Positions 41,163 through 58,278 of a stretch of DNA of 64,000 nt are shown one piece after another (positions within the stretch are counted from its first letter, which is position 1; each line of letters begins with the position of its first letter). The notes under the pieces were generated by a model that searched no databases, was not told the DNA's origin, and saw only the letters and a list, made by a program, of their open reading frames with translations. The DNA is from Nocardioides aromaticivorans (GTDB lineage: Bacteria > Actinomycetota > Actinomycetes > Propionibacteriales > Nocardioidaceae). The stretch is from NCBI RefSeq assembly GCF_013408525.1, contig NZ_JACBZM010000001.1, positions 1 to 64,000 of the forward strand, read 5' to 3'. The position numbers and the translations under genes are program-made.

Positions 41163-42557
41163 ATGTCTGACCAGTCCGTCGTCGAGAAGCACACCATCGG
41201 CTACGTCCCACCGGAGGACCGCCACGGCAAGGTGCGCGACCTCTTCACCCTGTGGTTCGGGACGAATATCGCTCCCCTGCCCGTCGTCACCGGCGCCGCC
41301 GGTGTCACCGTCTTCGGGCTCGACCTCTTCTGGTGCCTCGTCGCCATCGTGGTCGGCCACCTCGTCGGCGGCGTCTTCATGGCCCTGCACTCGGCCCAGG
41401 GGCCGCAGATGGGCATCCCGCAGATGATCCAGAGCCGCGGCCAGTTCGGCTCGTACGGCGCCCTGATCGTCGTCGTGATCGCCGCGGTCATGTACCTCGC
41501 GTTCTTCGCGTCCAACATCGTGCTCGCCGGCCAGTCGCTGCACGGGATCGCCGACCCGATCCCGGTCGAGGCCGGCATCGTCCTCGGCGCGCTCGGCTCC
41601 GGCCTGATCGCCGTGATCGGCTACAAGGTCATCCACGCGCTCAACAAGGTCGCCACCTGGGTCCTCGGCATCGGCATCGTGCTCGGCACGGCCGCGATCT
41701 TCGTCGCCGGCGTGCCCGCGGGCTTCTGGACGCAGGGCGGCTACAGCACGGCCGGCTTCCTCGCGACCGTCTCGCTCGGTGCGCTCTGGCAGATCGCCTT
41801 CGCGCCGTACGTCTCCGACTACTCGCGCTACCTGCCCGCCGACGTCGGCGTGCGGGCGACCTTCAACGCCACCTACCTGGGCTGCACCCTCGGCTCCATC
41901 CTGCCCTTCGCGTTCGGCGCGATCGTCGCCCTGGCCATGAAGCCCGGCGTCGAGGTCATGACCGGCGTGCGCGACACCACCGGCGCCTTCGGCACCCCGC
42001 TGCTCGTGCTCTTCCTGCTGTCCGTGATCAGCCACAACGCGCTCAACCTCTACGGCACGGTGCTCTCGATCATCACCTGCGTGCAGACCTTCGTCGCCCG
42101 CTGGATCCCGACGGCGCGCACCCGCCTGGTGCTGTCGCTGGTCGTGATGGCCGCGTCGACCTACTTCGCCATCGGCGTCTCCGGCGACTTCATCGGGCAC
42201 TTCGTCGACATCGTGCTCGCCCTGCTCGTCGTGCTGGTGCCGTGGACCGCGATCAACCTGATCGACTTCTACCTGATCCACCGCGGCAACTACGACATGG
42301 ACTCGATCTTCGCGGCGGACGGCGGGATCTACGGCCGCTTCAACGGCCAGGCGATCCTCGCCTACGTCATCGGCATCCTGGTCCAGATCCCGTTCATGGC
42401 CACGCCGCTCTACACCGGCCCGATCGCCGACCGGCTGGACGGCGCCGACCTGAGCTGGATCATCGGCCTGGTCGCCACCGCGCCGGTCTACTACCTGCTG
42501 GCACGCGGGCGCAGGCTCGCCCCCAGCGAGCTGCACCCGGTGGCCACGCCGGCCTGA
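41163..42557 (+). CDS. NCS1-family permease (cytosine/purine/hydantoin type)
   Basis: A 464-residue membrane transporter with about 12 helices. The start region VPPEDRHGKVRDLFTLWFGT and PQMIQSRGQFGSYGALIVV are typical of NCS1 nucleobase-cation symporters, as is the IAFAPYVSDYSRYLPADV loop. The NCS1 family imports cytosine, purines, allantoin, hydantoins and related heterocycles. ATG 41163 lies about 8 bases after TTGGAGAA. The operator at 41058-41080 links it to the island at 46-51 kb. A heterocycle such as an imidazole compound is a plausible cargo, unproven. Confidence 0.85.
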   Translation: MSDQSVVEKHTIGYVPPEDRHGKVRDLFTLWFGTNIAPLPVVTGAAGVTVFGLDLFWCLVAIVVGHLVGGVFMALHSAQGPQMGIPQMIQSRGQFGSYGALIVVVIAAVMYLAFFASNIVLAGQSLHGIADPIPVEAGIVLGALGSGLIAVIGYKVIHALNKVATWVLGIGIVLGTAAIFVAGVPAGFWTQGGYSTAGFLATVSLGALWQIAFAPYVSDYSRYLPADVGVRATFNATYLGCTLGSILPFAFGAIVALAMKPGVEVMTGVRDTTGAFGTPLLVLFLLSVISHNALNLYGTVLSIITCVQTFVARWIPTARTRLVLSLVVMAASTYFAIGVSGDFIGHFVDIVLALLVVLVPWTAINLIDFYLIHRGNYDMDSIFAADGGIYGRFNGQAILAYVIGILVQIPFMATPLYTGPIADRLDGADLSWIIGLVATAPVYYLLARGRRLAPSELHPVATPA

Positions 42558-42573
42558 CCACCCACGGTCCCGA

Positions 42574-42613: not shown

Positions 42614-42693
42614 CGTACCGGCCTTGTCCTGAACCGATGCAGGGCATCGGCAACCGCGATGCATGGATCCCTTGCGGAGGGTGACCTGCGCCA

Positions 42694-42723: not shown

Positions 42724-42762
42724 CTCTTGGCTGCTTCCCTCAGCGAGGACAGGACACATCCG

Positions 42763-44178: not shown

Positions 44179-45842
44179 GCGCCGCGTCGTCCGCGACCGT
44201 CTTCGTCGGTGGGCGCGTGCTCACCATGGACGCCACCCCCTGCGCCGAGGCGGTCGCGGTCCGCGACGGCAGGATCGTCGCCGTGGGGACGGCCGCTGAG
44301 GCGACCGCCGCGGCAGGCGCCGGCGCCACCGTGGTCGACCTCGCCGGCGGCACCCTGCTCCCCGGCTTCCAGGACGCCCACGTCCACCCGCTCGAGGGCG
44401 GCATGTCGCTGGAGCGCTGCGACCTGACCGCGGTGCACGCCCTGCCCGACTACCTCGCCGCCGTCCGGGCGTGGGCCGACGCCCACCCGACGGCAGCGTG
44501 GGTCGTCGGGGGCGGCTGGTACCGCGACGCCTTCCCGGGCAACCGCCCGCACCGACGCGACCTCGACCGCGTGGTCGCCGACCGGCCGGCGTACCTCAAC
44601 GGCCACGACGGGCACACCGCCTGGGTCAACTCCGCCGCGCTGCGTGCCGCGGGCATCGACCGGGACACGGTGGACCCGCCCAACGGCGTGATCGAGCGCG
44701 ATGCCGACGGCGAGCCCACCGGCGTGCTGGTCGAGGACGCCGCGGCGATGGTGTCGGCCCTGCTGCCCCGCACCTCGCCCGCCGAGCTTCGCCAGGCGAT
44801 GCTGACCGCCCAGGCCTACCTGCACTCGCTCGGCATCACCGCCTGGCAGGACGCCATCGTCGGGGACTACCTCGGCATGCCCGACCCCTTCGAGACCTAC
44901 CGGGCGCTGGAGGCCGAGGGCCTGCTGACCGCCCGCGTCCGTGGTGCCCTCTGGTGGGAGCTGGACCGGGGCACGGAGCAGGTGCCCGAGCTGGTCGAGC
45001 GACGCCGCCTGACCGCCGGCGGCCGCTTCCACGCGGGGACGGTCAAGATCATGCAGGACGGCATCTGCGAGAACTGCACCGGCGCGATGCTGGCCCCCTA
45101 TCTCGACCACGCCGGCGCACCGACGGGTGGGACCGGCCTGTCCTTCATCCCGCCCGACGAGCTCGCGGAGATCACGACCCGCCTCGACGCCCTCGGCTTC
45201 CAGGTGCACTTCCACGGGGTCGGCGACCGCGCCGTGCGTGAGTGCCTCGACGCGGTCGCCGCGGCCCGCGCCGCCAACGGTCCCAACGACCTCCGCCACC
45301 AGATCGCCCACCTCGACGTGGTGGACCCGCAGGACGTCCCGCGCTTCGCGGACCTGGGCGTGACGGCGAACCTCCAGCCCCTGTGGGCCCGGCGGGACCT
45401 GGAGATCGAGGAGACCAAGCTGCCGTTGCTCGGGCCGGAGCGAGAGCCGCACCACTTCCCGTTCGGCGCCCTGGCGGATGCGAAGGCCGACATCGCGATG
45501 GGCAGCGACTGGCCGGTCACCAGCCCCGATCCCCTCTGGGGGCTGCACACCGCGATCCATCGGACCGCGCCCGTCGGCGACCCCCACGGCAACGAGCGCG
45601 CCCGGACCGAGGCCCTCGTCGCCGAGCAACGGCTCGCCGCGGACGTCGCCCTGCGCGGCTACACGCGCGGCTCGGCGCGGGCCAACCACCTCGACGCCGA
45701 GACCGGGCGAATCGCGCCGGGAGCGCTCGCCGACCTGGTCGTCGTCGACGGCGACCTGACGGACCCGTCGGCGTTCGAGACGGCGCGGGTGCGGTCGACG
45801 TGGGTCGACGGGGTCGCGGTGTACGACGCCGACCGCGCCTAG
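44175..45842 (+). CDS. Amidohydrolase, YtcJ-like family
   Basis: A 555-residue metal-dependent amidohydrolase. GTLLPGFQDAHVHPLEGGMS carries the first HxH metal pair, and VHFHGVGDRAVRECLDA and AHLDVVDPQDVP hold further metal ligands. The C-terminal IAMGSDWPVTSPDPLWGL carries the catalytic Asp. These enzymes cleave amide or cyclic imidic bonds. ATG 44175 overlaps the permease stop, so import and hydrolysis are coupled. A hydantoin-, imidazolone- or formamide-like substrate is plausible given the NCS1 neighbour. Confidence 0.82.
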   Translation: MSAASSATVFVGGRVLTMDATPCAEAVAVRDGRIVAVGTAAEATAAAGAGATVVDLAGGTLLPGFQDAHVHPLEGGMSLERCDLTAVHALPDYLAAVRAWADAHPTAAWVVGGGWYRDAFPGNRPHRRDLDRVVADRPAYLNGHDGHTAWVNSAALRAAGIDRDTVDPPNGVIERDADGEPTGVLVEDAAAMVSALLPRTSPAELRQAMLTAQAYLHSLGITAWQDAIVGDYLGMPDPFETYRALEAEGLLTARVRGALWWELDRGTEQVPELVERRRLTAGGRFHAGTVKIMQDGICENCTGAMLAPYLDHAGAPTGGTGLSFIPPDELAEITTRLDALGFQVHFHGVGDRAVRECLDAVAAARAANGPNDLRHQIAHLDVVDPQDVPRFADLGVTANLQPLWARRDLEIEETKLPLLGPEREPHHFPFGALADAKADIAMGSDWPVTSPDPLWGLHTAIHRTAPVGDPHGNERARTEALVAEQRLAADVALRGYTRGSARANHLDAETGRIAPGALADLVVVDGDLTDPSAFETARVRSTWVDGVAVYDADRA

Positions 45843-45855
45843 GTGCGGGACCGGG

Positions 45856-46770
45856 TCAGCGGGCGCCGGCCCGGCGGGCCCGGCCCGCCGAGCGGACGAA
45901 GGCCTGGGCGCGCGCGGTGAGCCGCACGCCCTTCATCGACGACAGCACGATCTCCAGGGGCTCCACGGGATCGGTGATCTCCAGGATGACGACCTCCGCG
46001 CCGTCGTACGTCGTGCGGCTCGCCGGGCGCTGGTTGAGCACCGACCAGCCCTGGCCGTTGGCGACCATCGCGCGGACGGTCTCGAAGCCGGCGGTGCGGT
46101 GCCTGATCTCCGGCCGGAAGCCGGCGGATTCGACGATCCGCTCGAGGTACTGGCCGCTGTGCGGCAGGTCGAGCAGGACCATCGGCTCCCCCTCGAGCTC
46201 GGCGAGCGCGACCTTCTTGCGACGGGCCAGCGCGTGGTCCTTGCCGACGAGGACGTAGGGCGCCGCGACGCCGACCCGGACGTGGTCGATGTCGTCGTCG
46301 AGGTCGTAGCCGTACATCAGCGCGAGCTCGCAGCGGCCCGAGCGCAGGGCGTGCTTGAGCGCGGCGTGCTCGTCCTCGACCACGGACACGCGGATGCCGG
46401 GGTGGTCGGCCTCGCAGGCGGCGAGCAGCCGCGGCAGCTCGAACGGCCCGAGGGTGGTGAAGCAGCCGACCGTGAGCTCGCCGACGAGGGCCTGGCCCGC
46501 CGAGCGCGCGACCTCCACCAGCTCGCTCGTGTGCACGAGATAGCTGCGCAGCTCGCGGTGGAACTCCTCACCGGCGGCCGTCAGGGTCAGGCCGCGGGCG
46601 TGGTGGCGCAGCAGCAGCTGGACGCCGAGCTCCTTCTCCAGCTGTGCGACCGCCGTCGAGACGGCGGACTGCGACACCATGAGCTGCTTCGAGGCAGCGG
46701 TCATGCTCCCCAGCTCCGCGGCGGCGGCGAAGTACCGCAGCTGCGTGAGGGTGAAGGCGGGGTCAGCCAT
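45856..46770 (-). CDS. LysR-family transcriptional regulator
   Basis: A 304-residue LTTR. The N-terminal winged helix (TLTQLRYFAAAAELGSMTAA, then SQSAVSTAVAQLEKELG) is followed by the effector-binding domain (LVGELTVGCFTTLGPFELP, LLDLPHSGQYLERIVE). ATG 46770 lies 8 bases after AAGGAGGCGG. The same leader block occurs inverted at 46905-46922. It ends next to the convergent amidohydrolase and follows aspA on the same strand, so it probably controls this island. An ATC-N9-GAT box at 41061-41075 is a candidate target. Confidence 0.9.
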   Translation of the reverse strand: MADPAFTLTQLRYFAAAAELGSMTAASKQLMVSQSAVSTAVAQLEKELGVQLLLRHHARGLTLTAAGEEFHRELRSYLVHTSELVEVARSAGQALVGELTVGCFTTLGPFELPRLLAACEADHPGIRVSVVEDEHAALKHALRSGRCELALMYGYDLDDDIDHVRVGVAAPYVLVGKDHALARRKKVALAELEGEPMVLLDLPHSGQYLERIVESAGFRPEIRHRTAGFETVRAMVANGQGWSVLNQRPASRTTYDGAEVVILEITDPVEPLEIVLSSMKGVRLTARAQAFVRSAGRARRAGAR

Positions 46771-46953: not shown

Positions 46954-48405
46954 TCAGCTCTCGCCGGCGCCGGACGCGTCGAGGTTCGCGAGCGCCTCGG
47001 GCCGCAGCAGTGCGTCGAGCACGGCCGGGTCGAGGCCGCCGGTGGCGAGCGCGAGGTCGCGGACGGCGCCGGCGCCGCTGAGCGCGGCCTTGGCGATCTC
47101 CGCGGAGCGGGCGTAGCCGAGCAGCGGGGTGAGTGCGGTGGCGAGGCCGGCGTTGGCGGCCGCCGACGCGGCCAGCTTGGCCGGGTCGACCGTGATGCCG
47201 TCGACGCACAGCTCGCGCAGCGAGTCGAAGGCGGCGGCGGTCCAGGTGAAGCCCTGGAGCAGGCCGTGGCCCATGACCGGCTCGAACGCGTTGAGCTGCA
47301 GCTGGCCGGCCTCGGCCGCCATCGTGACGGTGAGGTCGTTGCCGATCACCCAGAACGCGACCTGGTTGACCATCTCGGGGATGACCGGGTTGACCTTGCC
47401 GGGCATGATGCTCGACCCGGCCTGGCGGGCCGGGAGCTGCAGCTCGGCGAGACCGGCCTGCGGGCCGGAGCCCAGCAGCCGCAGGTCGTTGCAGATCTTC
47501 GACGCCTTGACGACGATCCGCTTCAGCACGCTGGAGACCTGGACGAAGGCACCGGTGTCGCTGGTGGCCTCGACGAGGTCGCCGGCGCCCACGACGGGCA
47601 GGCCGGTGATGTCGGCGAGGTGCTGCACGGCGCGCCGCCGGTAGTCGGGGTGGGCGGTGATGCCGGTGCCGATCGCCGTCGCGCCGAGGTTGATCTCGCA
47701 GAGCAGCGCGCGCGAGTCGGCCAGCCGCGCGAGCTCCTCGCGCAGCGTCGTCGCGAACGCGCCGAGCTCCTGGCCGACCGTCATCGGGACCGCGTCCTGC
47801 AGCTGCGTGCGCCCGATCTTCGGGATGGCGCGGAACTCGGTCGCCTTGCGCGCGAAGGAGTCGGCCAGCGCCTCGGTCGCCACCGCGAGCCCGTCGATCG
47901 CGGCCACGAGCGCGAGCCGTACGGCGGTCGGGTAGACGTCGTTCGTCGACTGGCAGCGGTTCACGTGGTCGAGCGGGTGGACCTCGTCGTAGCTGCCGAA
48001 CGGCAGGCCGAGGATCTCCAGGGCCCGGTTGGCGACGACCTCGTTGGCGTTCATGTTGGTCGACGTGCCGGCGCCGCCCTGGATGACGTCGACGACGAAC
48101 TGGTCGTCGAGCGCCCCATCGCGGACCTCCTGCGCGGCGGCCGCGATGGCGTCGTACCGACGGTCGTCGAGGAGGCCGAGCTCGTGGTTGGCGCGGGCGG
48201 CGGCGAGCTTCACCGCGCCGAGGGCGGCGACGAGCTGGCGGTGCGCTCCGACGGGCGTGCCGCTGATCGGGAAGTTCCGCACGGCGCGGGCGGTGTGCAC
48301 GCCCCAGTACGCGGTCGCGGGCACCTCGAAGGGGCCGAGCGAGTCCTGCTCGGTGCGAGTCAGCGGAGCGTCGGCGTTGGTCAGCGGAGCGTCGAGTGCG
48401 GTCAT
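46954..48405 (-). CDS. aspA: Aspartate ammonia-lyase (aspartase)
   Basis: A 483-residue aspartase/fumarase-superfamily lyase that converts L-aspartate to fumarate and ammonia. GAGTSTNMNANEV and LDHVNRCQSTNDVYPTA are substrate loops, and the flexible SS-loop GSSIMPGKVNPVIPE carries the catalytic Ser region. AspA versus FumC is called from the STNMNANEV and CQSTNDVYPT pattern and from context; a fumarase cannot be fully ruled out. Its start (ATG 48405) overlaps the M20 gene stop by four bases. It ends the four-gene operon RidA-DUF1028-M20-aspA. Confidence 0.85.
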   Translation of the reverse strand: MTALDAPLTNADAPLTRTEQDSLGPFEVPATAYWGVHTARAVRNFPISGTPVGAHRQLVAALGAVKLAAARANHELGLLDDRRYDAIAAAAQEVRDGALDDQFVVDVIQGGAGTSTNMNANEVVANRALEILGLPFGSYDEVHPLDHVNRCQSTNDVYPTAVRLALVAAIDGLAVATEALADSFARKATEFRAIPKIGRTQLQDAVPMTVGQELGAFATTLREELARLADSRALLCEINLGATAIGTGITAHPDYRRRAVQHLADITGLPVVGAGDLVEATSDTGAFVQVSSVLKRIVVKASKICNDLRLLGSGPQAGLAELQLPARQAGSSIMPGKVNPVIPEMVNQVAFWVIGNDLTVTMAAEAGQLQLNAFEPVMGHGLLQGFTWTAAAFDSLRELCVDGITVDPAKLAASAAANAGLATALTPLLGYARSAEIAKAALSGAGAVRDLALATGGLDPAVLDALLRPEALANLDASGAGES

Positions 48406-49586
48406 CGTGCGGTCGCCTCCCCGGCGACGTCGAGCGCGGTCCAGGCCAGCGCGGTGGCGGCGTCGAGGATCGCCTTCTCGGCGTCCCCGCCGACACAGTG
48501 CGCGGCGAACTCGGGCTGGTGGTTGAGGGCGGTCCCCGAGTTGATGCCGACGTAGGGGTGGATCGCGTTCACGACCTGGGACACGTTGCCCATGTCGGTC
48601 GACGCGCGGTTCATCCGGCGGGCGGGCGAGTGGTCGTCGAAGACGCGGCCCAGCTCCTCCGCGTTGCGCCGGTACGACGCCAGCGCGGGCGCGAACGTGC
48701 GGAACTCGGCGTACGGCTTGCTCTCGGGCTCGACCGTGAGCGTCGCGCCGGTCGCGAGGGCACCGGCCTCGAAGCAGCGCCAGACCTTCTCCTCGGTCTC
48801 GGCGAGCTGGGCGAGGCTCTCGGCACGGACGTACCAGCGGCCCTCGGTCAGGGCGGGGATCGCGTTGGGCGCCTCTCCCCCGTTGGTCATCACGCCGTGC
48901 ACCCGCACGGTCGGCGGCAGCTGCTGGCGGAGCAGGCCGATTGCGACCTGGGCGATGGTGAACGCGTCGGCGGCGTTGACGCCCTGCTCGGGGTAGGCCG
49001 CCGCGTGGGCCGCCTTGCCGCGGAACTCGACGTGCGAGTGCGACACGGCGAAGGGCTCGGCCTCCGCCACGTCGACGGGTGCGGGGTGCGCCATCATCGC
49101 GAGGTCGAGCCCGGCGAAGGCACCGCGCTCGAGGAGCTCGATCTTGCCGCCGCCACCCTCCTCGGCGGGGGTGCCGTAGACCTCGATCGTCAACCCCGCG
49201 GCATCGGCCAGCGGGGCCAGCGCGCGGGCGGCGCCGACCGTGATGGCGGAGATCAGGTTGTGGCCGCAGGCGTGGCCCAGGCCCGGCAGGGCGTCGTACT
49301 CGGCGCAGAGACCGAGGCGGAAGGGGCCGCTGCCGAAGGTCGCCAGGAAGGCGGTGTCCAGCCCGAGGTAGGCCGGGGTGACGGTGAACCCGGCCTCCTC
49401 GAGGGACTCCGCGACCCAGCGTGAGGAGTTGTGCTCCTGCCAGCCGGTCTCGGGGTTCGCGTGCAGCTGCTCGGAGAGGCGGATCAGCCGCTCCGCGTCG
49501 CCGGTGACGGTGGTCGCGGCGCGCTGCCTCATGGTGGTCGAGGCGGTGGTCGAGGCGGTGGTCGAGGTGGTGGTCACCTGGGTCAC
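48402..49586 (-). CDS. M20D-family amidohydrolase (AbgB-like)
   Basis: A 394-residue M20 metallopeptidase-like amidohydrolase. GLCAEYDALPGLGHACGHNL carries metal ligands and the CGHN block, EEGGGGK and GRWYVRAES follow, and MNRASTDMGNVSQVV lies near the end, as in p-aminobenzoyl-glutamate hydrolase B-like proteins. In the operon with aspA, a likely job is to remove a formyl, formimino or similar group from an N-acyl-aspartate. GTG 49586 starts a Thr-rich lead encoded by 12-bp repeats; ATG 49532 (MRQRAATT) is an equally good start. Confidence 0.8.
   Translation of the reverse strand: MTQVTTTSTTASTTASTTMRQRAATTVTGDAERLIRLSEQLHANPETGWQEHNSSRWVAESLEEAGFTVTPAYLGLDTAFLATFGSGPFRLGLCAEYDALPGLGHACGHNLISAITVGAARALAPLADAAGLTIEVYGTPAEEGGGGKIELLERGAFAGLDLAMMAHPAPVDVAEAEPFAVSHSHVEFRGKAAHAAAYPEQGVNAADAFTIAQVAIGLLRQQLPPTVRVHGVMTNGGEAPNAIPALTEGRWYVRAESLAQLAETEEKVWRCFEAGALATGATLTVEPESKPYAEFRTFAPALASYRRNAEELGRVFDDHSPARRMNRASTDMGNVSQVVNAIHPYVGINSGTALNHQPEFAAHCVGGDAEKAILDAATALAWTALDVAGEATAR
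49533..49567. repeat. Three 12-bp tandem repeats at M20 gene start
   Basis: GGTGGTCGAGG occurs at 49533, 49545 and 49557, exactly 12 bases apart. They encode the Thr/Ala-Ser lead before ATG 49532, so they bear on the choice of start. The word GGTGGTCGAGG is the same as the beginning of the REP-like element at 11898. Confidence 0.6.
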
Positions 49587-50251
49587 TCGTCCCCGGGCAC
49601 GCCGTACGACGGCGCGGAGGTGGGGTCGATGCCGCGGGTGACGTAGTCGTCACGCTGCGGCAGCCAGACCTTCACGAGGTCGCGCAGATCCTCGATGGGC
49701 CGGTCGCTCCAGTCGACCCGCAGGTCGGTGACGCGCCACGCGACGTCGCGGACGACGGACAGCCCGGCCGAGCGGACCGGCCCCGCCTCGCCGCCCGCGG
49801 CCAGTCCGGCCTCGAGCGCGGCCAGCAGCCGCTCCTCGAGCTCGCCGGTCGCGGTCGTGAACGCCGCGGCGACGGCGTCCACGACCGCCGTACCGGCCAG
49901 CAGGTTGCCGGCCGCCACCACGTCGGGCGCAACGACGTGGTGGTGGACCCCGAGCGAGCCGCTGCCGCTGAACGCGGCGCCCGCTCCGTCGAGGCCGAGC
50001 ACCGTCAGCTGACGGTGCTCGATGTGCTCGCGGTCCTGGGTGACCGCCGCGAGGGCGGCCCGGGCGTCGAGCCCGCTGGCGAGGGCGTCGAGGAGCTCGG
50101 TGCCCAGGCGCGGGTCGGTGATGTTCTGCGAGGAGGCGCCCCCGACCCCGGGACGCAGGTGGATGCACCGCGCGGCGACCGCCGGGCTGGACGAGGTCAC
50201 GGCGATGCCGACGGCGCCCTTGCCGTCGGTGCCGAGGACGGAGAAGGTCAC
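49583..50251 (-). CDS. DUF1028 family protein (Ntn-hydrolase-like)
   Basis: A 222-residue protein of DUF1028 (COG3342), a group related to Ntn hydrolases. The start MTFSVLGTDGKGAVGIAVTS leaves Thr2 at the N terminus after Met removal, as an N-terminal nucleophile would require. PGVGGASSQNITDPRLG and GLDGAGAAFSGSGSLG are family blocks. GTG 50251 overlaps the RidA stop by four bases. It may hydrolyse an amide or amidine, perhaps acting with the M20 enzyme on a formyl- or formimino-aspartate intermediate; that is speculation from context. Confidence 0.8.
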   Translation of the reverse strand: MTFSVLGTDGKGAVGIAVTSSSPAVAARCIHLRPGVGGASSQNITDPRLGTELLDALASGLDARAALAAVTQDREHIEHRQLTVLGLDGAGAAFSGSGSLGVHHHVVAPDVVAAGNLLAGTAVVDAVAAAFTTATGELEERLLAALEAGLAAGGEAGPVRSAGLSVVRDVAWRVTDLRVDWSDRPIEDLRDLVKVWLPQRDDYVTRGIDPTSAPSYGVPGDE

Positions 50252-50694
50252 TTGGTCCCCTCGGGGATGACGGCGATCGCGTCGACCTCGACGAGCCACT
50301 CCGGGCGGGCCAGGGCGGAGATCACCAGGCCGGTGGAGATCGGGTGGACGCCCTTCGTCCAGCGACCGATCGTCCGGTAGACGACCTCGCGGTAGCGCGG
50401 GTCGACGATGTAGATGGTGAGCTTGACCAGGTGCTCCATCTCGGCGCCGGCCTCCTCGAGCAGCATCTTGATGTTCGCCATCGCCTGCTCGGTCTGCGCC
50501 TCGACGTCGCCGATGCCGACGGACTCGCTGGTGTCGAGGTCCTGGCCGATCTGGCCGCGCACGTAGACGGTGTTGCCCGCGCGGACGGCCTGGCACAGGT
50601 CGTTGTCGAGGTTCTGCTCCGGGTAGGTCACGCTGGTGTTGAACGGGCGGATGCGGGTGTGTCCGCCGACGACGATGCTCTTGTTGGTCTCCAC
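50248..50694 (-). CDS. RidA/YjgF family protein
   Basis: A 148-residue imine/enamine deaminase-like protein. RIRPFNTSVTYPEQNLDNDL at the N terminus and DVEAQTEQAMANIKMLLEEA in the middle mark the family. YIVDPRYREVVYRTIGRW and the GARPEWLVEVDAIAV-like ARPEWLVEVDAIAVIPEG end region also fit. RidA proteins speed hydrolysis of reactive imines or iminoacids. GTG 50694 is taken; CTG 50703, next to GGAGGAG, is an alternative. It starts the operon toward aspA and faces the monooxygenase across the repeated operator. It could deaminate an imino intermediate of imidazole breakdown. Confidence 0.85.
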   Translation of the reverse strand: METNKSIVVGGHTRIRPFNTSVTYPEQNLDNDLCQAVRAGNTVYVRGQIGQDLDTSESVGIGDVEAQTEQAMANIKMLLEEAGAEMEHLVKLTIYIVDPRYREVVYRTIGRWTKGVHPISTGLVISALARPEWLVEVDAIAVIPEGTK

Positions 50695-50723
50695 GGGGTC
50701 CAGTCCACTCCTCCCGGAGCCAT

Positions 50724-50833
50724 GTGTCCAACAGATGTTTCCGACGACCTCCATCATCAGATTCGATGCAACTCCGGCGTCGGCGCTGCATCTGTTCAGC
50801 CGATGCTCAAGGCCAACAACATCTGTTGGACAC
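50724..50833. promoter_or_regulatory. Repeated CAACAGATG operator sites in divergent promoter
   Basis: GTGTCCAACAGATGTT (50724-50739) and its exact complement AACATCTGTTGGACAC (50818-50833) bracket the divergent RidA/monooxygenase promoter. A further CATCTGTT lies at 50789-50796. The right arm also holds the small dyad CCAACA-N5-TGTTGG. CAACAGATG recurs at 41069-41077. This looks like a multi-site operator, with a DNA loop between the arms possible. Confidence 0.7.
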
Positions 50834-50861
50834 AGGGAAGGCGGCGGCTCAGGATTTCGGC

Positions 50862-52109
50862 ATGACCAACGAACAGATCGAGGTCCTCGTCGTCGGCGCC
50901 GGCCAGGCCGGTGTGGCGATGAGCGAGCACCTGAGTGACAACGGCGTACCGCACCTCGTGCTCGAGCGCGACCGGATCGCCGAGCGCTGGCGCACCATGC
51001 GCTGGGACTCCCTCGTCGCCAACGGTCCCGCCTGGCACGACCGCTTCCCCGGCATGGAGTTCCAGGACGTCGCCGGCGACGAGTTCGCGACCAAGGACCA
51101 GGTCGCCGGCTACTTCGAGGCCTACGCCGAGAAGATCAACGCCCCGATCCGGACCGGCGTCGAGGTCACCTCCGTCACCCGGCACGAGGGCCGCCCCGGC
51201 TTCCGCGTGGAGACCTCCGACGGCGTCATCGACGCCCGGTACGTCGTCGCCGCCACCGGGCCGTTCCAGCGCCCCGTGATCCCGCCGATCGTCCCGGAGT
51301 CCGCCGACGTCGTCCAGATCCACTCCAGCGACTACCGCAACCCGGCGCAGCTGCCCGAGGGCAACGTCCTCGTCGTCGGCGCCGGCTCCTCCGGCGTGCA
51401 GATCGCCGACGAGCTGCAGCGCTCGGGCCGGCAGGTCCACCTCTCCGTGGGCCCGCACGACCGTCCGCCGCGCAGCTACCGCGGCCGCGACTTCTGCTGG
51501 TGGCTCGGCGTCCTCAACCTCTGGGACCTCGAGACCCCGCCGGCCGGCGCCGAGCACGTGACCATCGCGGTCAGCGGCGCCCGCGGCGGCCACACCGTCG
51601 ACTTCCGCGCCCTCGCCGGGATCGGCATCCAGCTCGTCGGCCTGACCGATGCGTACGACGACGGCGTGCTCACCTTCCGCGACGACCTCGCCGCCAACAT
51701 CACCGCCGGCGACGCCAACTACCTCGCGCTGCTCCAGGCCGCCGACGCCTACGTCGAGCGCAACGGCCTCGACCTCCCCGAGGAGCCGCAGGCCCACATC
51801 CTCGGCCCGGACCCCGAGGCCGCGCTGGACCCGCTGCTCGCCGTGGACCTCGCCGAGGCCGGCATCACCTCGATCGTGTGGGCCACCGGCTTCGCGCTCG
51901 ACTACGGCTGGCTGCAGGTCGACGCCTTCGACGAGACCGGCAGGCCCGCCCACCGGCGCGGCGTCTCCTCGGAGCCCGGCGTGTACTTCCTCGGCCTGCC
52001 CTGGCTCTCCCGCCGCGGCTCGAGCTTCATCTGGGGCGTGTGGCACGACGCGAAGCACATCGCCGGCCACATCGCCACGCAGCGCAGCTATCTCACCTAC
52101 GACAGCTGA
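50862..52109 (+). CDS. Flavin-containing monooxygenase-like protein
   Basis: A 415-residue FAD/NAD(P) monooxygenase of the CzcO/FMO-like group. Two dinucleotide sites are present: VLVVGAGQAGVAMSEHL (about 8-24) and VLVVGAGSSGVQIADEL (about 168-184). ATGF seen as VWATGF near the C terminus completes the pattern. ATG 50862 follows the operator region at 50724-50833. In this island an attractive candidate reaction is hydroxylation of imidazole-4-acetate, the known next step after histamine oxidation. That assignment is inference. Confidence 0.82.
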   Translation: MTNEQIEVLVVGAGQAGVAMSEHLSDNGVPHLVLERDRIAERWRTMRWDSLVANGPAWHDRFPGMEFQDVAGDEFATKDQVAGYFEAYAEKINAPIRTGVEVTSVTRHEGRPGFRVETSDGVIDARYVVAATGPFQRPVIPPIVPESADVVQIHSSDYRNPAQLPEGNVLVVGAGSSGVQIADELQRSGRQVHLSVGPHDRPPRSYRGRDFCWWLGVLNLWDLETPPAGAEHVTIAVSGARGGHTVDFRALAGIGIQLVGLTDAYDDGVLTFRDDLAANITAGDANYLALLQAADAYVERNGLDLPEEPQAHILGPDPEAALDPLLAVDLAEAGITSIVWATGFALDYGWLQVDAFDETGRPAHRRGVSSEPGVYFLGLPWLSRRGSSFIWGVWHDAKHIAGHIATQRSYLTYDS

Positions 52110-52147
52110 CACCGCGGCGGCCGGCAGGCCGTCGTACACACAGGCCG

Positions 52148-52178
52148 AAGGCCCGGGCTCCGGAGGAGTCCGGGCCTT
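52148..52178 (+). terminator. Hairpin terminator after the monooxygenase gene
   Basis: AAGGCCCGGGCTCC (52148-52161) and GGAGTCCGGGCCTT (52165-52178) form a stem with one mismatch and a 3-base loop, followed by TTG. It lies 38 bases after the stop codon. Confidence 0.75.
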
Positions 52179-52182
52179 TGCG

Positions 52183-52335
52183 TTGACTCGCCACCTCGGT
52201 GGGTCGAGTTGCCGGTTTGCTGGGTTGACTTGCCACTTCAGCGGCTTGAGTTGCCACTTGTCTCGGCAACGGGCGCAAGACCTGGCAAGTCAACGCGCCA
52301 AACCGGCAAGTCAACGCGCCAAACCGGCAAGTCGC
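52183..52335. repeat. 21-bp periodic two-sided repeat array
   Basis: Four forward copies of a TTGACTTGCC-like word begin at 52183, 52204, 52225 and 52246, exactly 21 bases apart. Three reverse-complement copies (GGCAAGTCAA, the last GGCAAGTCGC) begin at 52284, 52305 and 52326, again exactly 21 bases apart. Between words lie 11-base spacers, of which CGCGCCAAACC is repeated exactly in the right half. The whole could fold into one long imperfect hairpin. It occupies the region between converging genes, so the stretch 52110-52409 holds this array, two terminators and no gene. Confidence 0.8.
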
Positions 52336-52344
52336 CGAAACGCA

Positions 52345-52380
52345 CCGCACCCCGGCCTCCGTGAGGAGACCGGGGTGCGG
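52345..52380 (-). terminator. Hairpin terminator after histamine dehydrogenase gene
   Basis: CCGCACCCCGG (52345-52355) and CCGGGGTGCGG (52370-52380) are perfect 11-bp complements with a 14-base loop. It lies 30 bases downstream of the stop at 52410. A second dyad, CCCAGCTGGC/GCCAGCTGGG, overlaps the stop (52389-52423). Confidence 0.75.
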
Positions 52381-52409
52381 CTCTGTGCCCCAGCTGGCAC
52401 GGTTGCGCC

Positions 52410-54464
52410 TCACGCCAGCTGGGTGACCTCTCGCCGGAAGGGTACGACGTCGTTGGACGGCAGCTGCGCGTCGAACTCCTCCGCGGCGCGACGACCGGAC
52501 CAGACGGCGGCGGCGATGGTGCCGGGGGCCCAGGCGTCGCCGATGCCGCGGACCGAGAGCAGCTCACCGGCGTCGCGACGCCCGACGAGCTCGAGGTAGA
52601 GCTCCTCCTTGGGCAGGCGGGCGGTGACCATGACGACGGCGTCGCAGTCGAGCTCGCGCTCGGCGCCGGCGTACACGTCGCGGACCGTCACCCCGCCGAC
52701 TCCCACCGAGACGACCGCGTGGTCGGTCACCCGGGTGACGCCGTTCTCGATGAGGCGGCGCTGGATGCGGTTGACCTCGAAGGTGTTGTTGGTCCACGCC
52801 GAGACCTGCGAGCCCGGGGTGACGATCGAGACCTCGTGGCCCTGCTGGGCGAGCAGCTCGGCGATGACGCCGCCCAGGTAGTAGTGGTCGTCGTCGTACA
52901 CGACGACCTTCCGCCCGGACGGCAGCCGCCCGGCGAAGATGTCGTCGGGGCCGAGCACCTGTGCGCCCTCGGCGATCGGGAGCGGCGTGGTGTGGAAGCG
53001 GGCGACGCCGTCGGTGCGCCACGTGGAGCCGGTGGCGACCAGCACGTGCTGGAAGCCGAACTCCGCGATGTCGTCGGCGCTCATCGGGCTCTCGCGGTAG
53101 ATCTCCACGTTGGGGAGCTCGGCGAGGGCGGCCTCGCGGTACTCCTTGACCCGGCCCCAGGCGGACAGGCCCGGCAGGGCCGACTCCTGGCCGACGCGGC
53201 CGCCGAGCTCGCGGCGGGCCTCGACCAGCGCGACGTCGTACCCGCGGACGCCGAGGGCACGCGCGGCCTCGAGACCGGCGGGGCCGGCGCCGACGACGAG
53301 CACCTGGCTGTCGCTCTCCTTCGCGCGGATCCGCTCGGGGTGCCAGCCGCGGCGCCACTCCTCCCCCATGCTCGGGTTCTGGGTGCAGCGGATCGGCGAC
53401 ATCGTCAGGTCGCCGGAGACGCAGATGTTGCAGCCGATGCACTCGCGGATCAGGTTGAGCCGGCCGTCGCGGATCTTGTTCGGCAGGAACGGGTCGGCGA
53501 TCGACGGGCGCGCGGCACCGATCAGGTCGAGGATGCCGGCCTTGACCTGGCGCACCATCGCGTCCGGCGAGGTGAAGCGCCCGACGCCGACGACCGGCTT
53601 GGTCGTCAGCTTCTTCAGGCCTGCGACGAACTCCTCCTGGCGCCCCTCGGGAGCGAACCGCGAGGTGACCGAGTCGCCCTCCCAGCTGCCCATCGCGAAG
53701 TCCCACAGGTCGGGGAGCTCGCCGAGCTCACGCAGCACGCCCTCGATGTCCTCGCGGGTGATGCCGCCGTCGATCTCCTCCTCGACCGTGATCCGGCAGG
53801 CCACGGCGGCGCGGCCGGCGCACTCCTCGAGGGTGTCCTCGATGAGCTCCTTGAGCAGCCGCATGCGGTTCTCGAGGGAGCCGCCGTACTCGTCGGTGCG
53901 GTTGTTGTAGCGCCGCGAGAGGAAGTGGTGCGGGGCGCCGTAGCCGTGGGCGCCGTACACGTAGACGATGTCGTAGCCCGCCTCCAGCGACCGGCGTACG
54001 GCGTTGCGGTGCCAGCGCCGCAGGTCGGCGATGTCCTGCGTGGTCATCGCACGGGCCTGGACGGGCGCGATCGTGTCGGGGGCGACGGGCAGGTGCTGCG
54101 GCCCGAGCGGGGTCTCGCGGCTGAGCTGGTTCGGCGCGTTCATGCCGTTGTGCGCCAGCTCGATGCCGGCCAGTCCCCCGCCCTCGTGGATCGCGTCGGC
54201 GATCCGCTTCAGGGCAGGCAGGTCCTGGTCGTCCCAGATCCGCAGCTCGATGAAGGGCGCGATGTCAGAGGTCGCGTGGATCTCGACCTGCTCGGTGCAG
54301 ACGACCGACCAGCCGCCCTCGGCCTTGATCCTGCGCATCGAGGCCTGCGCGCTGGGGTCGCGGTAGCCCATGCCGTTGCAGTGGGGCACCTGGTAGAAGC
54401 GGTTCTTCGCGGTGACCGGCCCGATCTGGACCGGCTCGAAGAGGATGTCGTAGGGCGAGGTCAT
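52410..54464 (-). CDS. Predicted histamine dehydrogenase (TMADH family)
   Basis: A 684-residue iron-sulfur flavoprotein of the trimethylamine dehydrogenase family, with an FMN barrel, a 4Fe-4S cluster and a C-terminal ADP/FAD-like half. Cys29 in QVPHCNG fits the 6-S-cysteinyl-FMN site. Tyr170, His173 and Asp264 match the active-site set. Cys342, 345, 348 and 360 bind the cluster. In TMADH the amine sits in an aromatic bowl of Tyr, Trp and Trp. Here those positions are Gln59, Trp261 and Asp352, the set reported for Nocardioides simplex histamine dehydrogenase (Gln65, Trp267, Asp358, a constant +6 offset). Other amines remain possible. Confidence 0.85.
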   Translation of the reverse strand: MTSPYDILFEPVQIGPVTAKNRFYQVPHCNGMGYRDPSAQASMRRIKAEGGWSVVCTEQVEIHATSDIAPFIELRIWDDQDLPALKRIADAIHEGGGLAGIELAHNGMNAPNQLSRETPLGPQHLPVAPDTIAPVQARAMTTQDIADLRRWHRNAVRRSLEAGYDIVYVYGAHGYGAPHHFLSRRYNNRTDEYGGSLENRMRLLKELIEDTLEECAGRAAVACRITVEEEIDGGITREDIEGVLRELGELPDLWDFAMGSWEGDSVTSRFAPEGRQEEFVAGLKKLTTKPVVGVGRFTSPDAMVRQVKAGILDLIGAARPSIADPFLPNKIRDGRLNLIRECIGCNICVSGDLTMSPIRCTQNPSMGEEWRRGWHPERIRAKESDSQVLVVGAGPAGLEAARALGVRGYDVALVEARRELGGRVGQESALPGLSAWGRVKEYREAALAELPNVEIYRESPMSADDIAEFGFQHVLVATGSTWRTDGVARFHTTPLPIAEGAQVLGPDDIFAGRLPSGRKVVVYDDDHYYLGGVIAELLAQQGHEVSIVTPGSQVSAWTNNTFEVNRIQRRLIENGVTRVTDHAVVSVGVGGVTVRDVYAGAERELDCDAVVMVTARLPKEELYLELVGRRDAGELLSVRGIGDAWAPGTIAAAVWSGRRAAEEFDAQLPSNDVVPFRREVTQLA

Positions 54465-56035
54465 CGGACGGGTTCCTTGATGCGGTCGTCGGGGCTGTCG
54501 GGGTTGCTGTCGGGGTTGCTGTCGGGGTTGCTGTCGGGGTTGCTGTCGGGGTTGCTGCTGGGGGTGCCGCCGGCGCGGACCGGGCGGCCGCACACGTAGC
54601 CGATGGCGCCGAGGGCGCCGATCACGGCGAGGGTGCCGAGGGTGAAGGCCTCGAAGGTCCCCTGGGACACGCCCCAGTAGTCCTCGAACGAGTAGTCGAG
54701 GCCGAAGACCCACTCGAGGGTGCCGGGGAAGACGGCGACCCAGGAGCCGAGGACGATCCAGGCGAACGCGATCCAGCCGAGCAGCGCGAACCCGCGGTCG
54801 GACAGCGGCACCCGGAAGGGCCGCTCCACGTCGGGGTACATCGTGCGCAACCGGATCGCCGCCGGGATGACGAAGAGGTAGGCGAGCAGGAACGTGGAGA
54901 TCGAGATCGTCAGCACCACGCCGAAGATCGCGCCGCCCGTGCCGGAGACCTGCATCGCCACGAGCATGAACACCGTCGCCGTGACGCCGGACAGCATGTT
55001 GACGCGCACCGGGGTGCCGAGGCCGGGGTGGAAGCGGCCGAAGAAGCCGCCGAAGAACGACCCGTCGGCGGCGGTCATCGCCTGCATGCGGTCGGAGATG
55101 ATCATCCACGCCGAGCCCTGGCTCATCAGCACGTAGACGACCACGATCGCGGTGACCTTGAGCAGCGGGTCCGCCGCGTCGCCGTACACGGAGAACACGG
55201 TCTTCACCGCGTCGAGGAAGCCGCCGATGCCGGTGATCTCGTCCTGGGGCACCACGATCAGGATCGCGAGGATCGGCACCAGGTAGCAGAAGGCCGCCGT
55301 GGCGCAGGACCGCAGGATCGAGACGGGTACGTCGCGGGCGGGGTTCTCCATCTCGCCGGCCGCGCTGTTGCCGGACTCGAAGCCGAGGTAGGCGAACAGG
55401 AGCAGCGGGACCGAGCCGAAGAGCCCGAGCAGGGTCGGGCTGAAGTCGCCCAGGCCCAGTCCGCCGACGCCGTGCTGGGCGGCATAGATCACCGTGGTCA
55501 GCACGAAGAAGACGAGCACCGCGATCTTGAGGACCGCGCCGCTGGTCGGCAGCCACTTGCCCTTCTGGAGGCTGACGACGGCGGCGAGCACGGTGATCCA
55601 GATGAACACGAGCTTGAAGGCGTAGTCGGCGAACGAGCCGGGCGTCATCGGCGTGATGTAGGTGCTGACGGTCTCGGCCGCGAGGAAGGACATCGAGCCG
55701 CCGACCCACACGGGCTGGGTGACCCAGTTGAGCAGGGACGCGACCGCGGCGGCCGGGCGCCCGAAGGCGTCACGGACCCAGGTGTAGGCGCCGCCCTCCT
55801 CGCTGAAGGCAGCACCGGTCTCGGCGAAGATCAGCCCGTAGGGCACCAGGAAGAACACGGCGAGGACGAGGGCCCAGGTGAACGCCTCGGCGCCGTACGT
55901 GGAGACCTGGCCGAGCGTCTCGAGGCCGACGACGGCCGCGATGAGCAGGAAGATGATGTCGAAGCGGCCGAGGGTGCGATGCAGGAGGGCCTGCTGCTCG
56001 GCGGCGAGCTCCGTGGGACGGACGGTGTCGGACAT
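54461..56035 (-). CDS. APC-family amino acid/amine permease
   Basis: A 524-residue APC-superfamily transporter with about 12 helices. It shows GRFDIIFLLIAAVVGLETLG, AFSEEGGAYTWVRDAFGRP and the YLGFESGNSAAGEMENPARD motif of polyamine/amino-acid exchangers. ATG 56035 is used. It overlaps the dehydrogenase ATG by four bases and follows the aldehyde dehydrogenase, so it probably imports that pathway's amine substrate. The C-terminal cytoplasmic tail ends with five tandem NPDS tetrapeptides. Confidence 0.88.
   Translation of the reverse strand: MSDTVRPTELAAEQQALLHRTLGRFDIIFLLIAAVVGLETLGQVSTYGAEAFTWALVLAVFFLVPYGLIFAETGAAFSEEGGAYTWVRDAFGRPAAAVASLLNWVTQPVWVGGSMSFLAAETVSTYITPMTPGSFADYAFKLVFIWITVLAAVVSLQKGKWLPTSGAVLKIAVLVFFVLTTVIYAAQHGVGGLGLGDFSPTLLGLFGSVPLLLFAYLGFESGNSAAGEMENPARDVPVSILRSCATAAFCYLVPILAILIVVPQDEITGIGGFLDAVKTVFSVYGDAADPLLKVTAIVVVYVLMSQGSAWMIISDRMQAMTAADGSFFGGFFGRFHPGLGTPVRVNMLSGVTATVFMLVAMQVSGTGGAIFGVVLTISISTFLLAYLFVIPAAIRLRTMYPDVERPFRVPLSDRGFALLGWIAFAWIVLGSWVAVFPGTLEWVFGLDYSFEDYWGVSQGTFEAFTLGTLAVIGALGAIGYVCGRPVRAGGTPSSNPDSNPDSNPDSNPDSNPDSPDDRIKEPVR
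54497..54556. repeat. Five 12-bp tandem repeats in permease tail
   Basis: The 12-base unit GTCGGGGTTGCT is repeated five times without interruption and in frame, encoding NPDS repeats at the permease C terminus. Such repeats change copy number by slippage, so the tail length may vary between strains. Confidence 0.8.
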
Positions 56036-56049
56036 GGGTGCTCCCGGAT

Positions 56050-57534
56050 TCAGTGGTTGATCCAGACGGTCTTGAGACCGACGTACTTGTCGAGGGCGTG
56101 GAGGGACAGGTCGCGACCGAAGCCGGAGCCCTTGAACCCTCCGAAGGGCGTCCACGCGCTGAAGGCGTCGACGCCGTTGACGGTGACCGTGCCGGCGTGG
56201 ATCCGGTCGGCGAGGCGGTGCGCGCGACGCAGGCTGCCGGTGGCGACCGAGGCGGCGAGGCCGTAGGCGGTGCCGTTGGCGAGCGCGACCGCCTCGTCCT
56301 CGCTGTCGAACGGGGTGATCGCGAGGACCGGGCCGAAGACCTCCTCGCGCGCGAGCTCGGAGGCCGGGTCGACGCCGTCGAAGACGGTGGGCTGGACGTA
56401 GCAGTCGCTGCCGTCGCGGGTGATCCGCTCCCCGCCCGTCACCAGGCGCGAGCCCGCGGCACGGGCGCCGTCGATGAAGCGCATGATGCCGTCGGTCTGC
56501 TCCGGCGAGACGACCGCGCCCATGCCGGCGGCCGGGTCCAGCGGGTCCCCCGGCGTGTACGCCGCAGCCTCGGCGGCGACCAACGCGACGAACTCCTCGT
56601 GCACCTCGCGCTGGACGAGGACGCGCGAGTGGGCGGAGCACACGGCGCCCTGGTTGAACCAGATGCCGAAGGCGGTCGCCTTCGCGGCGGCTGCCAGGTC
56701 GTCGGCGTCGGCGAAGACGAGGTGCGGGCTCTTGCCGCCGCACTCGAGCCAGACCTGCTTGAGGTTCGACTGGCCGGCGTACTGCAGGAAGTAGCGGCCG
56801 ACCTCGGTGGAGCCGGTGAAGGCGAGCACGTCGACGTCGGGGTGCAGGCCCAGTGCCCGGCCCGTGGTCTCGCCGAGCCCGGGGACCACGTTGAGGACAC
56901 CGTCGGGGATGCCGGCCTCGGCGGCGAGCTCGGCGATCCGCAGCGCCGACGACGGCGACTGCTCGGCGGGCTTGAGCACGACGCTGTTGCCGGCGGCCAT
57001 CGCCGGGGCGACCTTCCAGGCGAGCATGTCGACGGGGTAGTTCCACGGCACGACCGCGCCGACGACGCCGAGCGGGACGCGGCGGATCAGCGCGGTGGTG
57101 CCCGGCGGGGTGGGCGCGACCTCGTCGTTGACCTTGTCGATCGCCTCGGCGTAGTAGCGGAACAGGTTGACCGAGAACGGAAGGTCGAGGTCGTGCGCGT
57201 CGACGACCCGCTTGCCCATGTCGAGCGAGTCGAGCACCGCGAGCTCGGCGGCGTGCTCGGCCAGCAGGTCGGCGAAGCGCAGCATCTTCGCGCGGCGCTC
57301 AGCGACCCCGGCGCGGCTCCAGGTCCCGGCCTCGAAGGTGGCGCGGGCGGCGCGGACGGCCCGGTCGACACCGGCCTCCCCGGCGTCGGCGACCTGGGCC
57401 AGCAGCGCGCCGTTGGCCGGGTTGCGGTTCTCGAAGGTCTCCTCCCCTGCCTCGACGAAGCCGCCGCCGATGAACGGGCGGGTGTGGAGCGTGGCCTTGG
57501 CGGCCTCCGCGATCCAGTCCTGGTGAGTGCGCAC
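56050..57534 (-). CDS. Aldehyde dehydrogenase
   Basis: A 494-residue NAD(P)-dependent aldehyde dehydrogenase. PWNYPVDMLAWKVAPAMAAG, Glu in VWLECGGKSPHLVF and catalytic Cys299 in NQGAVCSAHSRV are present, and the C-terminal FGGFKGSGFGRD completes the fold. GTG 57534 follows AAAGGATC. It heads the operon ALDH-APC permease-histamine dehydrogenase, so imidazole acetaldehyde is the likely substrate, giving imidazole acetate. The TetR operator overlaps its promoter. Confidence 0.9.
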   Translation of the reverse strand: MRTHQDWIAEAAKATLHTRPFIGGGFVEAGEETFENRNPANGALLAQVADAGEAGVDRAVRAARATFEAGTWSRAGVAERRAKMLRFADLLAEHAAELAVLDSLDMGKRVVDAHDLDLPFSVNLFRYYAEAIDKVNDEVAPTPPGTTALIRRVPLGVVGAVVPWNYPVDMLAWKVAPAMAAGNSVVLKPAEQSPSSALRIAELAAEAGIPDGVLNVVPGLGETTGRALGLHPDVDVLAFTGSTEVGRYFLQYAGQSNLKQVWLECGGKSPHLVFADADDLAAAAKATAFGIWFNQGAVCSAHSRVLVQREVHEEFVALVAAEAAAYTPGDPLDPAAGMGAVVSPEQTDGIMRFIDGARAAGSRLVTGGERITRDGSDCYVQPTVFDGVDPASELAREEVFGPVLAITPFDSEDEAVALANGTAYGLAASVATGSLRRAHRLADRIHAGTVTVNGVDAFSAWTPFGGFKGSGFGRDLSLHALDKYVGLKTVWINH

Positions 57535-57633: not shown

Positions 57634-58278
57634 ATGGCACGACGCAAGGACCAGGCCGCCCGGCGCGAGCACCTCATCTCGGCGACCCTCGAGACGATCG
57701 CGACGCACGGCCTGGCCGGGGCGACGATGAAGAACATCGCCGAGACCGCGGGCATCTCCCCCCGCCTGGTCGCCTACTACTACCCCGAGTTCGAGGGGCT
57801 CATCGAGGCCGCACACCAGGCCGCGACCGACCGCTACTACTGGTCCCGGCAGCGCGACATCGAGGGCGACCTCGCCCCCGCCGAGAAGCTCGCCCGCCTC
57901 ATGCACTCCGGCCTCCCCCGCGGGAAGGACCTGCTGCTCAGCCAGGTCCTCGACGAGATCTCGGTCAGCGCGAGCCGCAGCCCGATGCACGCCACGCTGA
58001 TGACCCTGCTCTTCGACCGCGAGGTCTCGCTCTACACCTCCGTCCTCGAGGTGGGCGCGGCGCTCGGCGAGTTCACCCTCACCGACTCCGCCGACGTGAT
58101 CGCCCGCAACTTCGTCACCCTCGAGGACGCGCTCGGCCTGCACCTGCTCGCGCACAACTCGTCGATCACCCTCGAGCGCGCCGAGCAGCAGCTGGCCAGC
58201 TACGCCTTCTCCGCGACCGGCGCCCGCATCACCCCGAAGGCACCCGCCGACGCGCCGACATCCCCTCCGAAGAGCTGA
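57634..58278 (+). CDS. TetR-family transcriptional regulator
   Basis: A 214-residue regulator. The N-terminal HTH is at about 12-55 (HLISATLETIATHGLAGATM, KNIAETAGISPRLVAYYY). The C-terminal ligand domain is variable, as expected. ATG 57634 lies 6 bases after a TACGGT -10-like box (57622-57627) without a clear ribosome-binding site, so it is probably leaderless. It is divergent from the histamine operon and flanked by two matching operators, making it the likely repressor responding to the amine or aldehyde. Confidence 0.9.
   Translation: MARRKDQAARREHLISATLETIATHGLAGATMKNIAETAGISPRLVAYYYPEFEGLIEAAHQAATDRYYWSRQRDIEGDLAPAEKLARLMHSGLPRGKDLLLSQVLDEISVSASRSPMHATLMTLLFDREVSLYTSVLEVGAALGEFTLTDSADVIARNFVTLEDALGLHLLAHNSSITLERAEQQLASYAFSATGARITPKAPADAPTSPPKS

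Follow-up and report, generated by a model that had tools for sequence, protein, structure and literature searches.

A Nocardioides gene island that probably encodes histamine catabolism to fumarate around a conserved core with exchangeable parts

Does the neighborhood of a bacterial histamine dehydrogenase encode the whole route from the amine to central metabolism? The question is raised by the first 64,000 nucleotides of contig NZ_JACBZM010000001.1 of Nocardioides aromaticivorans (hereafter the window, meaning this whole stretch), part of a 5.26-Mb genome in two contigs, with an island whose nearest named relatives are Nocardioides. A sequence-only reading had placed there a trimethylamine dehydrogenase (TMADH)-family gene and genes for an aldehyde dehydrogenase (ALDH), an APC permease, a flavin monooxygenase, a RidA-like protein, a DUF1028 protein, an M20 amidohydrolase and aspartase, all eight of which are indeed present (Table 1), and had proposed that together they convert histamine to fumarate. 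That proposal is well supported by the match of the first protein to a solved histamine dehydrogenase (HADH), by a gene order conserved in Actinomycetota and Pseudomonadota, and by a regulator resembling HinK of the Pseudomonas Hin pathway, and we consider it very probable that the island encodes complete histamine catabolism to fumarate. We infer every reaction of this route from the protein families, the HADH orthology, the conserved gene order, the co-occurrence of the genes, the second residue of the DUF1028 protein (Thr-2) and a shared promoter site, each of which was observed directly.

Along its whole length the TMADH-family protein scores 1448 bits with the histamine dehydrogenase of PDB entry 3k30, where its self-alignment scores 1559, a match far beyond chance; lower down come a second histamine dehydrogenase (6de6, 827 bits), an uncharacterized FMN-oxidoreductase chain (6l6j, 697 bits) and trimethylamine dehydrogenase (523 bits). 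Gln65, Trp267 and Asp358, which we take to be pocket residues of the 3K30 enzyme in its own numbering, are all present, and the histamine-type pocket claimed for this gene is thus borne out. The source organism of 3k30 is presumably the one formerly called Nocardioides simplex, and Pimelobacter simplex ATCC 6946 carries the same island with an HADH ortholog 91% identical to that of the window. Judged by its sequence, the gene is an ortholog of the solved N. simplex histamine dehydrogenase.

In the proposed route, the APC permease would import histamine, HADH would oxidize it to imidazole acetaldehyde, and ALDH would carry the aldehyde on to imidazole acetate. The HinF-type flavin monooxygenase, a predicted imidazole acetate monooxygenase, would then oxidize the ring to imidazolone acetate, and the DUF1028 protein, a predicted ring-opening amidase with an N-terminal threonine, would open the cyclic amide to give N-formimino-aspartate. 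From this the Rid protein, as a predicted formimino-aspartate deiminase, would remove the imino nitrogen, the M20 enzyme, as a predicted N-formylaspartate deformylase (an activity that we take to be EC 3.5.1.8), would remove formate from the resulting N-formyl-aspartate, and aspartase would convert aspartate to fumarate and NH3; the DUF1028 step is provisionally placed before the Rid step. The permease yields sub-threshold antiporter matches, the best of them to TIGR03813 (102 bits vs. a cut-off of 650, on a piece lacking the N-terminus), and histamine is its likely substrate. For ALDH the best NCBIfam model is PuuC (553 bits, under the cut-off of 850). Thr-2 of the DUF1028 protein aligns with chain residue 1, the nucleophile position, of many HslV and proteasome beta chains, which places the protein among the Ntn hydrolases with their N-terminal Thr, Ser or Cys nucleophile in the Ntn fold. 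The aspartase gene product matches aspartase/aspartate ammonia-lyase chains at 496-418 bits, two chains titled "fumarate lyase" at 503 and fumarases at no more than 340, and in sequence it thus lies nearer the solved aspartases than the fumarases. Four-base overlaps between minus-strand neighbors at the HADH/APC, Rid/DUF1028, DUF1028/M20 and M20/aspartase junctions, the first formed by the permease stop and the HADH start, fit two operons, ALDH-APC-HADH and Rid-DUF1028-M20-AspA.

Conservation was followed in two samples: 80 loci, the top 80 among 166 relatives that a DUF1028 search picked out in named genomes, and hence leaning to close relatives, some of which end at contig ends (e.g., L018 and L069); and 293 genomes drawn evenly from the window's order. 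The samples overlap (L116 and L030, for instance, look like the same genome). All four core genes, namely monooxygenase, Rid, DUF1028 and M20, occur in 74 of the 80 loci, so that the gene order sought in other actinobacteria was found, and matches to M20, LysR, ALDH and aspartase were seen in 77, 75, 42 and 39 loci, respectively. Across the 293 genomes, close DUF1028 (E<=1e-40) and monooxygenase (E<=1e-120) matches occupy one identical set of 15 genomes, which includes that of the window, with monooxygenase orthologs at 65-94% identity. HADH matches (E<=1e-150) were found in 10 genomes; nine, at 89% identity or more, all lie among the 15 core-bearing genomes, and the tenth (G183, 43%) lies in a genome without the core, giving 9 of 10 if it is counted. 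With that protein set aside as another TMADH-type enzyme, nine of nine gives a hypergeometric probability of 1.3e-13, a figure that does not come from independent genomes, as these are related and all nine belong to the window's genus.

DUF1028 alone was also considered as a marker for the pathway and is ruled out by a second DUF1028 gene in the window genome (G000:C1:4173413-4174003, at 4.17 Mb), 33% identical and likewise carrying Thr-2, around which a search of 18 kb with 25 query proteins returned no match but DUF1028 itself. Plasmid records with DUF1028 matches include 105 from Klebsiella and 7 from Escherichia (L124, L125); one plasmid from each was looked at, and the E. coli one carries Rid-DUF1028-ArgE without the monooxygenase.

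The regulatory sequences further favor the histamine-to-fumarate reading, since one 15-bp site is common to both divergent core promoters. Exact copies of the sequence AACATCTGTTGGACA occur only twice in the genome, both times between Rid and the monooxygenase gene; one further copy appears when two mismatches are allowed, a limit at which a reversed-pattern control gives two, and the genome scan found no exact copy upstream of ALDH. Among the 80 loci the site lies near a core gene start in 66, and of the 92 matches found when two mismatches are tolerated 90 fall there, whereas 60 shuffled versions gave a mean of 0.6 matches in total and a maximum of 7. In the PDB, the sequences that score highest with the LysR protein are 6m5f, titled HinK from P. 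aeruginosa, and 3fzv, level at 202 bits (36% identity over 289 residues), and by this match it is a HinK-type regulator. Its proposed role is to detect imidazole acetate and to regulate from the two sites, while the TetR protein would control the front end. As the A of the LysR-type T-N11-A motif is found in only 20 of 65 aligned copies, sequence does not settle which protein owns the site, and LysR is the presumed one.

The genes that flank the core differ strikingly from locus to locus. As entry enzymes, the 80 loci carry HADH (17), a GMC oxidoreductase (13), a copper amine oxidase (12) or a class III aminotransferase (11), with two of these in 4 loci and none in 31, some of them at contig ends; in 22 of the 31 an MHS-type symporter gene is present instead. 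An ALDH gene sits no more than 2.5 kb from 11 of the 17 HADH, 8 of the 13 GMC, 8 of the 12 copper oxidase and 9 of the 11 aminotransferase genes, and such occupation of HADH's place near ALDH and core by other amine-oxidizing enzymes favors the histamine-to-fumarate reading. The aminotransferase and GMC counts are weak ones on which we do not lean: of the aminotransferase loci, L056, L077 and L078 match at only 38-39% and the other eight at 69-100%; GMC matches range from 51 to 100%, and, as both are large families, it should be said that a base rate was measured for copper amine oxidase only. That enzyme (E<=1e-100) occurs in just 24 of the 293 genomes and lies within a 19-kb stretch with the core in three of the six core-bearing genomes that lack a close HADH, at least one of which seemingly also figures among the 80 loci; this fits enzymes feeding one aldehyde and acid into the core. 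An Arthrobacter plasmid carries contiguous genes for ALDH, copper oxidase, TetR, LysR, monooxygenase, Rid, DUF1028, M20 and aspartase. GMC, ALDH and an NCS1 permease stand beside the core in an Acetobacter plasmid, a Klebsiella plasmid (GMC, ALDH, permease, monooxygenase, Rid, DUF1028, ArgE) and several actinobacteria, which suggests an alcohol entry, possibly for imidazole ethanol, the fusel alcohol that yeast makes from histidine. The window genome holds a further copper amine oxidase gene, distant from the island (G000:C1:1485357-1487267).

Exchange reaches into the core itself. The monooxygenase is lacking in four loci, three of which (L032, L041 and L082) have an HpaB-type oxygenase directly before Rid and one of which (L070) has neither; the 15-bp site stands upstream of the HpaB unit in L032 (exact) and L041 (two mismatches), and an Aminobacter plasmid carries flavin reductase, HpaB, Rid, DUF1028, ArgE and aspartase. 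L087 likewise shows an HpaB-type oxygenase in the flavin monooxygenase's place before Rid-DUF1028. In the M20 slot, the window-type enzyme is found in 77 of the 80 actinobacterial loci and in none of eight proteobacterial plasmid loci. It passes TIGR01891 (190 bits, above the cut-off of 154), the proteobacterial M20 passes TIGR01892, and window M20 and ArgE type barely align (29% over 98 residues, E 0.012). Taken together, these substitutions lead us to a broader proposal, one we find quite possible and hold tentatively: Rid, DUF1028 and M20 would form a plug-in for imidazole acetate breakdown, with the oxygenase slot filled by either of two unrelated enzymes (the flavin monooxygenase, or an HpaB-type enzyme paired with flavin reductase) and the M20 slot by either of two deformylase subfamilies. 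Entry would be through any of four enzyme types: a dehydrogenase, a copper oxidase, a transaminase, or a GMC oxidase that would let in imidazole ethanol. On this view DUF1028 would open a lactam with its threonine as nucleophile, which would give the family its first role, and the Rid protein without the arginine would serve catabolism as a dedicated deiminase and not damage control. In the CC-licensed PMC papers that our search covered we found nothing on DUF1028, and neither the swapped slots, nor its role here, nor the 15-bp site in print. As a separate observation, a Rieske oxygenase gene adjoins the Rid-DUF1028 core in Pseudosulfitobacter and Caballeronia plasmids (L127, L083), perhaps for a related ring compound.

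Several observations weigh against a histamine-to-fumarate route. The loci without any entry gene indicate that the link between core and histamine is not an exclusive one. The ArgE-type M20 occupies all eight proteobacterial plasmid loci (in five directly after DUF1028) and none of the 80 actinobacterial ones. Of the latter, 14 lack the 15-bp site, as do two actinobacterial plasmid loci and, at their core promoters, the eight proteobacterial loci. The monooxygenase's best named family, TIGR04046 (the MSMEG_0569 family, presumably linked to Nit1C nitrilase clusters), matches it nearly end to end yet at 358 bits, below the curated cut-off of 498. Aspartase as the last step, as the sequence-only reading had it, accords with the structural matches but scores 588 bits against the TIGR00839 cut-off of 681. 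The Rid protein has Ser at the column of E. coli RidA Arg105, as do 102 of 103 aligned sequences (a set with repeats from the overlap of the two samples), and scores 67 bits against TIGR00004, under the cut-off of 106; it thus stands outside the RidA imine hydrolase subfamily defined by the catalytic Arg, which argues against a plain RidA mechanism for deimination. Lastly, the correspondence to HinF, HinL, HinH and HinG is drawn from gene order, from annotation and from identity ranges that are roughly alike, HinK being the only one compared directly.

The absent arginine favors an alternative in which the pathway is the same and its middle steps are split otherwise, with Rid, for example, aiding ring opening, DUF1028 taking the formyl or formimino group and M20 acting on another amide. 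Ser at this column occurs in about 10% of RidA proteins according to PMC4433059. With Ser in place of the catalytic Arg, RidA-type deimination by the window protein is doubtful; moreover, M20, Rid and DUF1028 share an operon within which we infer the individual steps, and a 374-residue metagenomic protein (P0122), in which Rid (PF01042) is fused to DUF1028 (PF06267), is compatible with consecutive steps in either order. However, HinG has been published as EC 3.5.1.8 and HinL as an enamine deaminase, as far as the accessible text of PMC6467879 goes, and two amidohydrolase subfamilies in the M20 slot fit simple deformylation. The claim that the monooxygenase, RidA, DUF1028 and M20 genes fill the middle steps is supported by their order, which matches hinFLHG, and is weakened as regards the Rid protein; a different division of labor is the less favored option, though one to be reckoned with.

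It is very improbable, by comparison, that monooxygenase, Rid, DUF1028, M20 and AspA degrade some other heterocyclic acid imported by NCS1 permeases and that HADH adjoins them by chance. NCS1 permeases do adjoin many cores, 40 of the 80 loci have no amine-oxidizing gene in view (the 31 without a front end and 9 with GMC only), and the monooxygenase gene runs towards HADH from a promoter site of its own; but a HinK-like regulator is present, the family order is that reported for hinFLHG, all nine close HADH orthologs in the 293 genomes reside in core-bearing ones, and three more types of amine- or alcohol-oxidizing enzyme, which could in principle make the same aldehyde, recur near core and ALDH. 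That HADH and ALDH only detoxify histamine or supply electrons to the respiratory chain, with imidazole acetate exported and the core expressed separately, is likewise very improbable: the two separate regulators and the restriction of exact site copies to the core would suit it, but in one genome (G163, locus L121) the core itself takes in an ALDH gene, flanked by monooxygenase and Rid, and HADH lies a few kb off.

The probable histamine-to-fumarate island extends beyond the eight genes first named, since the LysR, NCS1 permease and TetR genes had been passed over (Table 1). The LysR gene comes after the Rid-DUF1028-M20-aspartase unit, both minus-strand units run in the same direction, and the monooxygenase gene, on the other strand, diverges from Rid and converges on HADH. 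The TetR gene is 80-89% identical and adjoins ALDH in L003, L004, L006, L008, L012 and L013; at the other edge, the NCS1 permease (NCS1a) is 88-96% identical and adjoins the LysR gene in L003, L004, L006, L008 and L013, keeping synteny with the core in several Nocardioides, with a 69% match beside the core in a Burkholderia plasmid, and it likely takes up an imidazole compound. Between an LLM-type oxidoreductase and LysR, positions 41163-45842 encode a pair of NCS1 permeases and, judged by eye, an amidohydrolase-like protein to which 9 of the 80 loci have a match. Repeated units of about 20 bases occur in 52110-52410, between the convergent monooxygenase and HADH genes.

Table 1. Genes and promoter elements of the island in window coordinates
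Feature	Position	Strand	Basis or remark
NCS1-family permease (NCS1a)	41163..42557	+	Pfam PF02133; island edge
LysR-type regulator, HinK-like	45856..46770	-	PDB sequence match to HinK
Aspartate ammonia-lyase (predicted HinI function)	46954..48405	-	PDB chain matches
M20 amidohydrolase (HinG position)	48402..49586	-	PF01546/PF07687
DUF1028 protein (HinH position)	49583..50251	-	Ntn-type hydrolase, Thr-2
Rid-family protein (HinL position)	~50248..50694	-	PF01042, 81.5 bits; start codon uncertain
Putative operator/promoter element AACATCTGTTGGACA	50725..50739	-	Faces Rid, 30 bp upstream of its likely start
Putative operator/promoter element AACATCTGTTGGACA	50818..50832	+	Faces monooxygenase, 29 bp upstream of its start
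Flavin monooxygenase (HinF position)	50862..52109	+	PF13738
Histamine dehydrogenase (HADH), TMADH family	52410..54464	-	3k30 match
APC-superfamily permease	54461..56035	-	Sub-threshold amino-acid/amine antiporter matches only
Aldehyde dehydrogenase (ALDH)	56050..57534	-	PF00171, 531 bits
TetR-type regulator	57634..58278	+	Named from sequence; divergent from ALDH-APC-HADH unit

These results place histamine dehydrogenase, a well-studied enzyme, in a full putative pathway to a central metabolite. The further suggestion that DUF1028 and M20 are a new enzyme set for deformylation does not survive, as the same slots are in print as hinH and hinG in the accessible parts of PMC8231116 and PMC6467879. 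The lower pathway is not new, and what remains is narrower: an M20 of another subfamily, and DUF1028 and an arginine-less Rid protein that can be linked to specific reactions. Interest now centers on the exchangeable parts, on the chemistry of these two proteins, for which a testable reaction is now offered, and on the promoter site, a short sequence that could serve to recognize such islands in Actinomycetota. Whole-enzyme exchange in three slots of one pathway would make a clean case of non-orthologous replacement, and it predicts use of imidazole ethanol by vinegar bacteria and through some enterobacterial plasmids.

The closest known system is the Hin pathway of P. putida U and P. aeruginosa PAO1 (hinABCD, hinFLHG, hinIJ and hinK), in which, according to PMC8231116, the hinFLHG products make aspartate from imidazole acetate, the compound to which the LysR regulator HinK responds. 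As described in PMC6467879, HinF is an FAD monooxygenase (EC 1.14.13.5), HinL the enamine deaminase, HinH an amidase, HinG the amidase numbered above and HinI an aspartate ammonia-lyase. The window core matches this in families and in their order, DUF1028 standing where HinH would, and is likewise accompanied by an aspartase and a HinK-like regulator. A DUF1028 protein of P. putida CSV86 (P0141), not proven to be HinH, is 52% identical to that of the window. Where the Hin entry step combines amine oxidation with ALDH, the window supplies HADH and ALDH, with a histamine dehydrogenase rather than the HinC transaminase; it also differs in having everything in one island with aspartase inside the operon, in an M20 that is not the ArgE type of the proteobacterial plasmid loci (P. 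putida HinG itself not being compared) and in its promoter site, not found in the proteobacterial loci. Among actinobacteria, homologs HinADFGHIL and growth on histamine have been reported for Brevibacterium as a putative hin pathway, for which the excerpt of PMC6467879 names a copper histamine oxidase and a weak HinC homolog for the first step and no histamine dehydrogenase, and gives the HinG homolog a locus tag apart from the others. The solved DUF1028 structure SPO2555 (PDB 2IMH) is listed without a function, whereas the family member in the window sits in a probable pathway, and the 3K30 enzyme of N. simplex, to which the window HADH is orthologous by sequence, is now set in its gene cluster.

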